Shown: piece by piece, positions 11,702-56,289 of the stretch
How the letters are laid out: every line of letters starts with the position of its first letter
Position numbering within the stretch: the stretch's first letter is position 1
Assembly (NCBI GenBank): GCA_002773355.1
Contig: PFBL01000004.1
Coordinates: 1 to 56,289 of the forward strand
Source: Candidatus Kaiserbacteria bacterium CG10_big_fil_rev_8_21_14_0_10_56_12
Lineage (GTDB): Bacteria; Patescibacteriota; Minisyncoccia; Phycocordibacterales; Phycocordibacteraceae
Reading direction: 5' to 3'
DNA length: 56,289 bases
Notes under the pieces: generated by a model
What the model was told of the DNA's origin: nothing
The model's input: the letters and a program-made list of their open reading frames with translations, nothing else
Databases searched by the model: none
Made by a program: the position numbers and the translations under genes

Positions 11702-12082
11702 CTAAACAAGATTTTTCAATTCGTCCTTAATCTCTTTTGCTAAAGAAAAGTCAGAGATTCGGGTAGGCTCATGTGAGAGCGCATTAATCCCTTCTTCGTT
11801 ATATCGTGGAACGAGGTACCAGTGTACGTGACGAGCTTCATCCATATACAACAGATATACTTTCTCAACCTGCAAGGCTTTGAGAAGTGCTTCCCGTATG
11901 ACGTTGACAGTATCCATCAGGTGCTCGTAGTCATGTCGGCCAAGCAAATTCAAATCAACTATGGCTTCCTTCCACACAACAATTGTGTGTCCTCTCGCAA
12001 TAGGGAAGGAGGCTAAGCAGACATATAATTTATCTTCCTCGAAGAACACTGCCTCAGGAATTGGGTTCGCAAGTAAATCCAT
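11702..12082 (-). CDS. HIT (histidine triad) family protein
   Basis: A 126-aa HIT protein. The active-site motif is HVHWYLVPR at 85-93, so the family HxHxH pattern has Tyr at its third position while the central nucleophilic His (H87) is kept. HIT proteins hydrolyse or transfer nucleotidyl groups; some are dinucleotide phosphorylases or adenylyl sulfate hydrolases. The protein starts 1 nt after the HemL-like gene stop (TGACATG) and is followed by a terminator. A housekeeping or nucleotide-sugar clean-up role is possible. Confidence 0.85.
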   Translation of the reverse strand: MDLLANPIPEAVFFEEDKLYVCLASFPIARGHTIVVWKEAIVDLNLLGRHDYEHLMDTVNVIREALLKALQVEKVYLLYMDEARHVHWYLVPRYNEEGINALSHEPTRISDFSLAKEIKDELKNLV

Positions 12083-12083
12083 G

Positions 12084-13400
12084 TCAATTTAGGCGCTCGA
12101 AGCCCGTGTGCGCAACGGGGCCGCGTAACTTTTTATAGACTGTCCTGGTCTCCAGGGCATGGGCTAACACCGCGAACGATTGGTCGACCGATCGTACATA
12201 GTTCTTAATGTGCGTGTCCGTGTGCGCACACGAGGCGAAGAACATGTTCGTCGCTAGATACCCTCGATCCAGCATCTCTTGGACGAAGAGCGTCTTAAGT
12301 GCTTGGCTGACCTTGCCGTGTTGAAAGGTGAAGCTACTGATTGGCATAACGCCGCCGATAACGATCGCGAGGTTGTATTTCTTTGCGAGCGATGTCCACC
12401 CCTCACGCACCAGCCTCCCGGCCCGTTCGATGCGCTTTGGTGCGCCAACGCGCTTCATTTTCTTAATCGTGGCGAGCGCCGCTACAGGGCCGACACGTTC
12501 TGTCCAATACGTGCTCGAAATAAACGTGCGTTGCGCCGCTTGCATGACCTTGCGACGGCCGATGATGGCCGCCATCGGATACCCGTTACTGATCGCTTTG
12601 CTAAAGACGGCAATATCCGGATTGACGCCGTAGAGCAAGTGGGCGCCGCCATGCGTCAACTTCCACCCTACCGTTATCTCGTCAAAAATGAGTACCGCAC
12701 CCGTTGTGTCGGCGATCTTGCGAACCTTCTGTAAGAAGTGGTCCTCTGGCTCGACCCCATGTATAGGCTCCATGATAATGGCCGCTAGATTCTTCCCCTC
12801 CTTCTTCACAATAGCTTCAAGCTCTTCGATCTTGTTGTAATGAAAGGGGCGTACTGTGCCTCGCAGGCCGCGTGGCACCCCCGCTGGCTCTAGGCCGGCG
12901 AGCAGATGCTCCTTGAGGCCGTCCTTTCGTGCGAGGTTGGTGGCGAGATACCAATCGTGCCACCCGTGATACCCGCAGAACGCGATGGTGTCTCTCCCGG
13001 TCGAAGCGCGCGCAATGCGTTCGGCAATCGCCATTGCCTCGCCGCCGGTTCGTGCATACCGCACCATCGAGGCCCACGGATGTGTGGTGCAGAGTAGCTC
13101 AGCGAGCTCCACCTCCTCAGGGGCGTTCAGTGTTGACATGGATCCGCTATCAACGGCCTTCTTCACCGCCCGATTCACCTCTGGGTCGGCATATCCCAAG
13201 ATACAGCTCCCCACGCCCATGATGCCCATATCGATGTACTTCTTGCCATCAAGATCCCACACTTCGCAACCTTTTGCCTTGGTGTAATACGCTGGCCACT
13301 GATTCGGGAGGAACATCTCGGGACGCTTAGAGAGCAGTTGCGTACCGCCCGGGATCAACCGCTTTGCCTTGGTATAGAGTCGCTGGCCCTTGCCGCTCAT
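12084..13400 (-). CDS. Class III aminotransferase, glutamate-1-semialdehyde aminomutase-like
   Basis: A 438-aa fold-type I PLP enzyme. It has GYHGWHDW at 143-150, FDEITVGW at 239-246 (PLP-contacting Asp) and the Schiff-base lysine K268 in FSKAISNGYPMAAIIG. This resembles HemL, but no other tetrapyrrole gene is present; HemL-like aminotransferases are common in surface sugar clusters, where they aminate a keto- or aldehyde-sugar. The longer reading frame to 13466 runs through the terminator hairpin, so ATG 13400 is chosen; a TATAGT box ends 9 nt upstream of it. Confidence 0.88.
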   Translation of the reverse strand: MSGKGQRLYTKAKRLIPGGTQLLSKRPEMFLPNQWPAYYTKAKGCEVWDLDGKKYIDMGIMGVGSCILGYADPEVNRAVKKAVDSGSMSTLNAPEEVELAELLCTTHPWASMVRYARTGGEAMAIAERIARASTGRDTIAFCGYHGWHDWYLATNLARKDGLKEHLLAGLEPAGVPRGLRGTVRPFHYNKIEELEAIVKKEGKNLAAIIMEPIHGVEPEDHFLQKVRKIADTTGAVLIFDEITVGWKLTHGGAHLLYGVNPDIAVFSKAISNGYPMAAIIGRRKVMQAAQRTFISSTYWTERVGPVAALATIKKMKRVGAPKRIERAGRLVREGWTSLAKKYNLAIVIGGVMPISSFTFQHGKVSQALKTLFVQEMLDRGYLATNMFFASCAHTDTHIKNYVRSVDQSFAVLAHALETRTVYKKLRGPVAHTGFERLN

Positions 13401-13409
13401 AATGACCGT

Positions 13410-13415
13410 ACTATA
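13410..13415 (-). promoter_or_regulatory. -10 box with leaderless spacing, HemL-like aminotransferase
   Basis: TATAGT, then 9 nt, then ATG 13400. It sits directly after the T-run of the upstream terminator, so this is a genuine start of a transcription unit with essentially no 5' leader. Confidence 0.6.
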
Positions 13416-13428
13416 CTCGTTTTTTATG

Positions 13429-13459
13429 AAAAAAACAGGACGGTTTCCAGCCGTCCTGT
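13429..13459 (-). terminator. Intrinsic terminator of the DMT transporter gene
   Basis: Perfect 9-bp stem ACAGGACGG/CCGTCCTGT with a 7-nt loop, followed on the minus strand by seven T. It lies 25 nt after the transporter stop codon. Confidence 0.9.
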
Positions 13460-13484
13460 CTGTCATACCCTCTCCGCCCCAGAC

Positions 13485-14402
13485 TCACGTCTGGGTGAAT
13501 GCCACCAGGATGCCACCGATAATGGCGATGCCCAAGAAGCAAAGCTGCGCACGAGAGAAGTTACGATGCTCCTTGAAGAAGACGAAGCCCACAACCGCGG
13601 GGGCGACCAGATCCGCCACGAGTAACAGCGGGAAGATCACGAGCTGTGGGGCGAGCCAGTGCGCCCAGTATATGCTCGCGAGATTCGCGATGATCGCGAT
13701 ACTGAGCACCTCGATCCGCGGCATATCGCTGCGAGCCAGCTCCCAGTCGAATCGCAAGCCCTCGACCCTCCACTTGAGAATCCAGGCACCCAAGAGCGAA
13801 CCCGAGTACCAGGCACTCAAGTAGGTCCCAACGGGAACCTCCTCGACTGAGAGGTACTTCACGACAAAGTTGGCCACACCCCAGACGAGCGTGTAGGTCG
13901 CTACGGCACGGTAGAATTGCCGCGCCTGGATCGGATCAAGCTCCTCCGGCACAGTGCCGGTTGCACGCAGATCCTCGCGTGTCAGCAACAGCGCCGCACC
14001 GAAATATAGGATGATCCCCATGAGAAGCGTAGTCGTGACGATCTGCACCTCCCCAAGGAATACCGTCGTCAGGAGCATGGCGAGTGCGCCATTGCCGAAC
14101 ATGAAGAACGACGTGCGGCTAAGGCTCACTGCATGCGCCTTCCATTGCGCGTGACATGCCCAGGCGTTTGCAACGCCAAGCGCCACCACAGGCGCGGTCG
14201 TCGAATTAAAGACCAACTGGTCGAGAACCCACGCCGCACCAATGGCGAGCACGCTCGTGCACGTGAATTGCAAAACCAGCTTCTGCGGTAGCCGCGATCC
14301 GAGGCTCATTCTCTTGTGGAGATACGATGCGACGACATTGCCGAACAGCACCTTACTGAGAATGGGAACGAACCACGGTATACTGAGGAAGAACGCTCCC
14401 AT
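13485..14402 (-). CDS. DMT/EamA-like transporter
   Basis: A 305-aa integral membrane protein with about nine or ten hydrophobic segments; the C-terminal repeat ends LVAPAVVGFVFFKEHRNFSRAQ..GIAIIGGILVAF, typical of EamA/drug-metabolite transporters. The substrate is unknown; export of a sugar or metabolite, or a glycan-precursor flippase, is possible. It stands alone between its own promoter (14444-14472) and terminator (13429-13459). It is the only gene of the window with a perfect Shine-Dalgarno sequence (AAGGAGGTG, GGAGG 7 nt before ATG). That sets it apart from its neighbours and may indicate transfer from a Shine-Dalgarno-using bacterium. Confidence 0.85.
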   Translation of the reverse strand: MGAFFLSIPWFVPILSKVLFGNVVASYLHKRMSLGSRLPQKLVLQFTCTSVLAIGAAWVLDQLVFNSTTAPVVALGVANAWACHAQWKAHAVSLSRTSFFMFGNGALAMLLTTVFLGEVQIVTTTLLMGIILYFGAALLLTREDLRATGTVPEELDPIQARQFYRAVATYTLVWGVANFVVKYLSVEEVPVGTYLSAWYSGSLLGAWILKWRVEGLRFDWELARSDMPRIEVLSIAIIANLASIYWAHWLAPQLVIFPLLLVADLVAPAVVGFVFFKEHRNFSRAQLCFLGIAIIGGILVAFTQT

Positions 14403-14407
14403 GACAG

Positions 14408-14416
14408 CACCTCCTT
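14408..14416 (-). promoter_or_regulatory. Canonical Shine-Dalgarno sequence AAGGAGGTG
   Basis: The GGAGG core is followed by 7 nt and then ATG 14402. It is unusual here because no other gene start examined in the window has one, and because the 16S 3' end in this window lacks CCUCC. Confidence 0.85.
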
Positions 14417-14443
14417 GTGTTTGTTGAGACCAATCCGTGTAAA

Positions 14444-14472
14444 ATAGTACTATATTTAGTATAGTGCGTCAA
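14444..14472 (-). promoter_or_regulatory. Strong sigma70-type promoter with palindromic spacer
   Basis: TTGACG (14467-14472), a 17-nt spacer and TACTAT (14444-14449). The spacer and flanks hold a dyad, ACTATA-CTAAA-TATAGT, which could be a repressor operator. The predicted leader before the transporter ATG is about 35 nt, unlike the leaderless spacing elsewhere in the window. Confidence 0.7.
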
Positions 14473-14552: not shown

Positions 14553-15701
14553 CTACACGAGATACGCTGACAGAATCTGCCTAAGAGTTTTGATCACGAA
14601 CTTCTGTTGCGTGAGGGTGATGGCCGGGAAAAGTGGGATTGAGATTTCTGCCGCAACGTAGGCTTCGGCACTTGGACAGTGGACTTTTTTGTAACCGTGG
14701 CTCCGATAATACGGGTGTGTATGGACGGGGACATGGTGGACCTGCACGCCGATTCCCGCCGCGCGGAGCTTCGCGAAGATTTCATCGCGCTTCGGAGCCA
14801 GGTGCGCGGCGAGGCGCAGTGGGTAGAGGTGCCACGCTGACTGCTCATACGCACGTTCCGCGGGAGGCAACACGAGGCCCGGTATTTTTTTGAGCAGTGT
14901 GTCATAACGCTTGGCTGCCGCACGACGCCTGCTAATGAAGTTCGTGAGGCGCTTCAGCTGGCTCTCGCCGAGTGCCGCAGACAACTCAGGCATGCGGTAA
15001 TTGTATCCGAGCGCTTGCATTTCTTGATACCAGGCACCCTTATCCTTATGGATAAATTTTGCACCGTCCTTGCTAATACCATGACTACGAAAGAGCCGGA
15101 GCGCATCTGCGTACGCCTTGCTATTCGTCACAATAGCGCCGCCTTCGCCAGTTGTAATTGACTTCACAGGGTGGAAGCTAAACATCGTCATGTCGGCGAG
15201 CGCACCAACCGGCTTGACTCGGTAGGTGGCACCGAGCGCCTGGGCCGCATCTTCGATGAGGACGAGTTTGTGCTTCTTGGCAAGCGCTTTAAACGCCCGC
15301 ATATCAGCGGGTCGGCCCGCATAGTCCACCGGGACGATGGCCTTCGTTCTCTTGGTAACGCGCCGACGAGCGTCCTCGACACTCATGTTGCCTGTCTGCG
15401 AGTCGGAGTCAGCAAAAACCGGGCGTGCGCCTAGATAGAGTGCGGCGTTTGCGGTGGCGGCGAAGGTAAGGGCGGGCACGATCACCTCGTCTCCCTTCCC
15501 AACGCCCGCGGCGAAGTATGCCGCGTGAAGGGCCGCCGTGCCCGAATTGAACGCCACGCCGTATTTCGCACCAGCCTTTTTGGCGAGAGCCGTCTCAAAT
15601 CGCTCGAGGGCAGGGCCCTGGGTGAGCCAACCTGAACGCAAGACTCGATGTACAGCCTCAATGTCAGAGTTGTCTATACTTTGTGTTGAATACGGGATCA
15701 T
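14553..15701 (-). CDS. DegT/DnrJ/EryC1/StrS aminotransferase (PseC-like)
   Basis: A 382-aa PLP-dependent sugar aminotransferase. It has FNSGTAALHAAY at 51-62, EDAAQALGA at 150-158 and the PLP lysine K180 in SFHPVKSITTGEGG. Full-length for the family. It would transfer an amino group to the 4-keto-6-deoxy product of the PseB-like dehydratase or to another keto-sugar. It overlaps the inositol-monophosphatase-like gene by 4 nt (ATGA). The 150-nt gap after it contains the transporter promoter. Confidence 0.9.
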   Translation of the reverse strand: MIPYSTQSIDNSDIEAVHRVLRSGWLTQGPALERFETALAKKAGAKYGVAFNSGTAALHAAYFAAGVGKGDEVIVPALTFAATANAALYLGARPVFADSDSQTGNMSVEDARRRVTKRTKAIVPVDYAGRPADMRAFKALAKKHKLVLIEDAAQALGATYRVKPVGALADMTMFSFHPVKSITTGEGGAIVTNSKAYADALRLFRSHGISKDGAKFIHKDKGAWYQEMQALGYNYRMPELSAALGESQLKRLTNFISRRRAAAKRYDTLLKKIPGLVLPPAERAYEQSAWHLYPLRLAAHLAPKRDEIFAKLRAAGIGVQVHHVPVHTHPYYRSHGYKKVHCPSAEAYVAAEISIPLFPAITLTQQKFVIKTLRQILSAYLV

Positions 15702-56072: not shown

Positions 56073-56289
56073 ATTGGATATGTTCCACGAACAGCTTCCG
56101 CTACCCGTGCCTTGTTACGACTTAGTCCTTGTCATTGAATTTGCCGTAGTCCTGCGCGAGGCAGACCTTCGGGCACCCCCAACTCCCCTGACTTGACGGG
56201 CGGTGAGTACAAGACTCGAGAACGTATTCACCCCGGTTTGGCTGACCCGGGATTACTAGCGATTCCGGCTTCATGAGGTCGGTTGCAGA
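56073..56289 (-). rRNA. 16S ribosomal RNA, 3' end (partial)
   Basis: The last about 217 nt of a small-subunit rRNA gene, running off the window. Universal parts are present: GTAATCCCGGGTCAG, CACCGCCCGTC and GTCGTAACAAGG (A1492/A1493, U1498, A1502/A1503 equivalents). Helix 44 is short. Helix 45 (56086-56109) is a perfect 10-bp stem, CACGGGTAGC/GCTGTTCGTG, with the dimethyl-A loop GGAA. After it the sequence is GAACATATCCAAT in place of GATCACCTCCTTA, so the anti-Shine-Dalgarno CCUCC is missing. The base equivalent to A1396 is U (56206). The mature 3' end is inferred from E. coli numbering. Confidence 0.95.

Follow-up and report, generated by a model that had tools for sequence, protein, structure and literature searches.

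Introduction

The DMT superfamily (EamA, PF00892) counts YddG-like exporters and nucleotide-sugar transporters among its members. Phage 'morons' are single genes inserted together with a promoter and a terminator of their own. A third relevant situation is that of bacteria whose 16S rRNA has lost the anti-Shine-Dalgarno (anti-SD) sequence, a loss already known from scattered lineages. A paper on 'SD-scarce' prokaryotes, which have no conserved CCUCC, places among them the CPR groups Wolfebacteria, Campbellbacteria, Peribacter and SR1; Kaiserbacteria are not named in its main text (PMC10783764). On the fate of SD-bearing genes, or of SD relics, in CPR bacteria devoid of an anti-SD, we found nothing in print, in a search lying mostly outside subscription journals.

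The locus described here can be set beside each of these cases. It belongs to a window of 56,289 nucleotides, the whole stretch of DNA analysed, from Candidatus Kaiserbacteria bacterium CG10_big_fil_rev_8_21_14_0_10_56_12 (the host). A gene for a putative transporter, P0001, stands there as an autonomous expression unit in a foreign place, as a moron does; it differs from morons in that no phage gene is found among the neighbours scanned, and in that it is placed in an operon of the very pathway to which its family is linked. P0001 resembles DMT proteins in its length of about 300 residues, in the helices that a low-confidence model draws along the chain, in an F-x-E motif and through the EamA match of a homologue; it departs from them in having no Pfam EamA match itself, and in the link of its family to CPR nonulosonate clusters. 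With the SD-scarce prokaryotes (PMC10783764) the host has in common a 16S rRNA without CCUCC and hardly any use of SDs, while it differs in being of a Kaiserbacteria-type genus, within a class that is a mosaic for this character.

The transporter gene and its insertion site

The features of the locus are collected in Table 1. The first-pass annotation had described a spaced promoter, a leader, an SD and a terminator around this gene; promoter, SD and terminator are indeed read directly in the sequence, and the extent of the leader would follow from the position of the -10. The start codon is ATG (14402-14400), separated by 7 nt from AAGGAGG and by 5 nt from the complete AAGGAGGTG. The promoter has 9 of the 12 consensus bases; sites of equal grade number 8 in the 6 kb scanned, where 3.1 are expected, so that this grade alone is weak proof. 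A terminator with a perfect stem is found in 14 of 302 genes, the transporter gene being one of them. Special folding was sought in the leader RNA, and none was found (z 0.71).

Table 1. Coordinates of the features of the transporter locus and of the 16S rRNA end in the window.
Feature	Position	Strand	Remark
Class III aminotransferase (GSAM-like)	12084..13400	-	downstream partner at the insertion site
Leaderless-type -10, TATAGT	13410..13415	-	ends 9 nt before the aminotransferase ATG (13400)
Intrinsic terminator	13433..13461	-	11-bp stem, then T-rich
DMT-type membrane transporter ORF, P0001	13485..14402	-	305 aa
Leader, about 35 nt	14403..14437	-	inferred from the position of the -10
SD, AAGGAGGTG	14408..14416	-	9-nt perfect complement of the canonical anti-SD
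-10-like TACTAT	14444..14449	-	17-nt spacer after TTGACG
Two overlapping perfect dyads, ACTATA-N5-TATAGT and ATAGTACTAT	14444..14465	.	largely -10-like hexamers
-35-like TTGACG	14467..14472	-	
PseC-type aminotransferase	14553..15701	-	upstream partner; TIGR03588 493.5 bits, cut-off 423.5
16S rRNA 3' end	56073..56289	-	UAUCC (56080-56076) in place of CCUCC

The gene is an insertion. In three related genomes (G431, G834 and G813) the PseC-type and GSAM-like genes directly adjoin, without room for a transporter; a check of presence and absence in related genomes had been proposed. In G022 the place is occupied by a methyltransferase-like ORF (named from its sequence) with an ATGA overlap, and G034 has the GSAM-like gene with no PseC match beside it. 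No transporter was found in any of the 57 other genomes of the genus. Together with the insertion this means that vertical inheritance with a conserved SD, the finding that would have spoken against acquisition, is not seen in the genus as sampled. The aminotransferase itself, searched with a query one codon too long (12084-13403), is present in just 6 of 92 same-genus genomes, host included, so that the whole cluster is variable. A HIT-domain gene (11702-12082, minus strand) lies between the aminotransferase and a cytidylyltransferase in the host and in G813, with no match at that place in G431, G834 and G022; by this gene, too, the operon differs among relatives.

A recent acquisition from an SD-using bacterium had been proposed. 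The absence of the insertion in relatives upholds one part of this proposal, as do the GGAG leaders of homologues in 4 of 5 hosts with an intact anti-SD, whereas neither recency nor a donor could be sustained. The codon score of the gene, at the 45th percentile, is that of a native gene, not an atypical one; its GC3 is at the 92nd percentile, higher than in any other of the 13 genes compared from the cluster; and its nearest homologue is 33% identical. A donor was sought in genome_contigs, viral_contigs and plasmids, which returned no relative of P0001.

The palindrome in the promoter had also been taken as a sign of regulated expression, a suggestion that found no support in the part of the genome sampled. 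The spaced dyad ACTATA-N5-TATAGT (14465-14449) has no second copy at up to one mismatch in a 344-kb sample of the host, and the search for an operator regulon through such copies led nowhere. The inner ATAGTACTAT (14453-14444) recurs once in that sample, at L115:16550. Perfect dyads occur in 31 of the 196 upstream regions of 60 nt from sampled genes, a count that leaves out the transporter dyad, which sits just beyond 60 nt. No regulator gene stands beside the transporter, the flanking genes scanned being enzymes.

How genes start in the host

A simple codon-score caller predicted 303 genes in 344,188 bases, or 54% of the genome, with a few stretches reading N. Its errors are visible at the locus itself: it began the aminotransferase at 13466, where the leaderless ATG at 13400 is the proper start, and it overlooked the HIT gene. 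Upstream of the starts a TANNNT hexamer shows a sharp peak at -12 to -14, with 44 cases at -12 against a background of about 3.5, the mark of leaderless mRNAs. Among the 303 genes, 104 are coupled to the gene upstream, 100 are leaderless-like and 99 are of other kinds. In the window, 39 of the 53 called genes overlap the upstream gene or start at most 20 nt from it, 7 have a -10-like hexamer near the start, and 7, including the transporter gene, have neither.

The first-pass annotation saw the transporter as the one SD-bearing gene in a region without SDs, and this is borne out, AGGAGG being found in [-18,-4] of this gene alone among the 303. The longest match to TAAGGAGGTGATC is that of the transporter (9 nt), followed by one of 8 nt at a coupled gene, and its duplex with a canonical tail, at -14.9 kcal/mol, ranks 1 of 303. 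When the same pipeline was applied to the SD-using G509, 79 leadered genes yielded 32 with GGAG near the start, and the control windows 4 and 4; since SDs are plainly found there, their near absence in the host is real. To be sure, the match should not be overrated. Under a Markov model, AAGGAGG has a probability of P = 0.15 of turning up at least once in the 18-nt windows of the 303 genes, so that this 7-mer alone is unremarkable genome-wide. The 9-mer occurs 9 times on both strands of the 344 kb, which implies about 0.04 at gene starts. The weight of the match comes from the fact that an inserted, leadered and terminated gene carries it. Over the whole genome, GGAGGN{3,9}ATG is found 159 times against 98 for the reversed pattern (an imperfect control of composition), which counts against uniqueness. 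In the part of the window from 1757 to 53340, AAGGAGG is present 21 times against 5 in shuffles, and 18 of these copies are on the minus strand, where nearly all the window genes are located; such motifs seem not to be avoided.

A ribosome without the anti-SD

The host assembly has a single 16S 3' end. After helix 45 it shows GGAACAUAUCC, the counterpart of GGAUCACCUCC in other bacteria, with CAUAUCC in place of the usual CACCUCC. When 58 genomes of the genus, that of the host among them, were searched at the DNA level, 38 had a match; among the 30 loci listed, 27 ends, own included, could be read past helix 45, and none of the 27 has CCUCC. The anti-SD is also absent in G431, G813 and G030. 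All 26 stretches of genome_contigs that match the exact 32-base pattern of the host 16S end are without CCTCC, the pattern, which ends in GGAAC, being biased toward such tails. In the class as a whole, 192 of 383 genomes match a 16S-end pattern; among the matches listed (148 genomes), 75 have CCTCC, one of them through the contaminant-like copy of G013, and 73 do not, intermediate tails being present, and this split is not one of frequencies, as it holds among the matches listed and the pattern accepts any last base but G. The tails of the class are graded, from CACCUCC through CAUCUCC and CAUUUCC to CAUAUCC.

The consequence is that the SD of the transporter is unable to pair normally: the motif is there at the correct spacing, the complementary CCUCC is not there in the 16S rRNA of the host. 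The suggestion that this ribosome tolerates or ignores SDs gains strength accordingly, normal pairing being unavailable to it. A variant SD matched to the altered tail can be dismissed, since GGATAT, GGATA and TGGAT show no enrichment at the gene starts of the host.

Some further observations on 16S genes deserve record. CAUAUCC (56076-56082, minus strand) is identical in the readable ends of the genus, while other families differ, and the tail may be constrained for another reason after the loss of CCUCC. The main 16S copy of G013 is without an anti-SD; a second fragment with a canonical CCTCC lies on a small contig, C6, and is probably a contaminant. The 16S gene of the host is broken up over contigs C9 and C17 (L002, L003 and L004); on C17 the match spans about 1 kb for some 360 model positions, which suggests an intron.

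A patchy transporter family

The assignment of P0001 to the DMT type is based on weak EamA matches in two of the eight homologues scanned (L102 with 29.8 bits, above the cut-off of 28.2, and L095 below it) and on the helix pattern. The predicted model has long helices along the whole chain, perhaps about ten, at low confidence (pLDDT 46.9, a poor value), and no sequence match was found among solved structures. The F-x-E motif is invariant near the C-terminal end of the family. Most aligned homologues begin about 7 residues further in than P0001, so that the family does not share the place of the SD-ATG pair found here.

The family is distributed in patches. A search of the order found it in 5 of 396 other genomes below E 1e-20, with one weak case in addition; the phylum gave 4 of 378 below 1e-10, with three weak ones, and a profile search of the class 15 of 382, one already in the phylum set. 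The strong homologues of order and phylum are 25-33% identical. A tree of 22 rows (with G771, without G891 and G1063) is poorly resolved and mixes host orders without strong support; P0001 forms its longest branch (1.8), in a poorly resolved position, and no donor clade appears.

Another set of 22 genes, which leaves out G771, G1063 and also weak partial matches, was used for neighbourhoods and signals. Of the 22 homologue regions, 12 have nonulosonate genes within about 1.5 kb; among background windows the figure is 17 of 199 (p = 7e-7), and some of these windows adjoin a DMT gene, which weakens the contrast. As a case in point, the transporter of G190 has a cytidylyltransferase on one side and a class III aminotransferase on the other, and both kinds of gene are also close by in the host window. 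We found no literature joining nonulosonic acid with EamA. A terminator-like hairpin with a T tail follows within 80 nt of the stop in 16 of 22 genes (0.3 expected from shuffles), and a promoter-like site precedes 14 of 22 (3.2 expected). In eight longer regions the transporter is opposite to both neighbours in four; in G617 it is in line with both.

GGAG is found in [-18,-4] of 13 of the 22 genes, own included, and hence of 12 of 21 homologues, at starts chosen by the analyst, as a rule the first ATG. It is present in 4 of 5 hosts that bear an anti-SD (G509, G617, G979 and G1078; not G907), in 4 of 9 of unassigned state and, own gene included, in 5 of 8 without an anti-SD, above the 13% background of leadered genes in such hosts (P = 0.0014).

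GGAG leaders in genomes without an anti-SD

The leadered genes of genomes without an anti-SD display an unexpected excess of GGAG, small and correctly placed. Five same-genus sample sets (six genomes) supply 324 leadered genes, 45 of which have it in [-18,-4]; two control windows upstream give 21 and 10. Of the 45, 17 start exactly at -10, where the peak is. AGGAG gives 21 against 4 and 3, and AGGAGG 8 against 1 and 0. In the rest of the order and class, six hosts without an anti-SD have GGAG in 15 of 117 leadered genes, the DMT gene of G190 among those sampled, against 1 and 3. G757, of unassigned anti-SD state, shows no clear excess (3 of 51 against 5 and 3). There is no excess in leaderless genes and a deficit in coupled ones. 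Part of the excess is error, one start being inside MurC and almost certainly miscalled. Codon scores are lower in the 29 leadered genes that carry AGGAG or GGAGG (30th against 48th percentile, p = 0.0025), as fits acquired genes. In the host, where such leaders are rare, GGAG-type ones precede the genes of an orotidine-phosphate decarboxylase (L119:13527-14261) and of a short SAICAR synthetase (L116:4707-5144), both possibly acquired.

Origin and fate of the SD of the transporter

The account to which we incline, with moderate confidence, is that a nonulosonate-linked DMT-type transporter entered a Kaiserbacterium without an anti-SD as a self-contained expression unit, and that its SD is probably a relic. 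The data establish the loss of the anti-SD, the insertion, the signals in the DNA, and the patchiness and gene neighbourhood of the family, and the steps that follow are drawn from these; the promoters and terminators around homologues and the GGAG leaders in most of the anti-SD-bearing hosts also speak for them. A member of a divergent DMT-type family, often found beside CPR genes for nonulosonic-acid (pseudaminic-type) biosynthesis, would have entered a translationally coupled nonulosonate operon with its own promoter, a leader with a full SD, its ORF and its terminator. The SD would go back to a donor or ancestor that used SDs, and is probably left over now without a partner. The host ribosome would start at the AUG of the leadered mRNA without SD pairing, the terminator would end the transcript, and the leaderless promoter behind it would restart the operon. 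P0001 itself may move a nonulosonate-related or envelope metabolite. The native codon usage, the longest branch, the want of a donor or close relative, the SD-ATG pair at a place of its own within the family, and a DMT assignment based on weak EamA matches and a poor model count against this account; furthermore, GGAG in 5 of 8 anti-SD-less hosts exceeds what decaying relics would predict, unless transfer is frequent.

That last figure also speaks for a rather unlikely alternative, in which GGAGG-type leaders still work in ribosomes without an anti-SD and are kept by selection, for instance through residual pairing with the remaining UCC/CAU or through bS1 or another protein acting on purine-rich leaders. 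The placed excess of GGAG and AGGAG in the genus and of GGAG in the rest of the order and class would be expected from it, and the tail of the host does pair with the transporter leader, with -5.8 kcal/mol, the tenth place among the 303 genes. However, the low codon scores of the AGGAG and GGAGG genes point to acquired or miscalled genes, as with MurC, k-mers fitting the altered tail are not enriched, and leaderless genes lack the excess, coupled ones even showing the reverse. We consider it unlikely that, more generally, a small class of leadered genes in CPR bacteria without an anti-SD, to which the transporter gene would belong, still uses GGAG(G) at the correct spacing by a recognition on the part of the altered ribosome that does not involve CCUCC; if this were true, SD function would have outlived the anti-SD. 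It is quite improbable that the gene is an ordinary native one in whose leader a run of purines resembles an SD by chance. The frequency of AAGGAGG in the window and the Markov estimate for gene starts leave room for such a run, but the 9-nt match is the best of all genes called, the gene that carries it is inserted and has a promoter, a leader and a terminator, and GGAG leaders recur in more than half of the homologues. Finally, an error of assembly or binning that joined a stretch of another genome into the contig is hardly credible: absence from all the other genomes of the genus tested would fit it, but the operon runs on without a break around the gene, the gene order to either side is conserved, and the GC and codon usage of the gene are native.

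Significance

The analysis links nonulosonic-acid clusters with a transporter family that has no name as yet. The family, with its GGAG leaders, is found both in hosts that have lost the anti-SD and in hosts that keep it, and this situation, together with the graded 16S tails of the class, offers a natural comparison by which to ask whether an SD without its partner is inert, tolerated or used.
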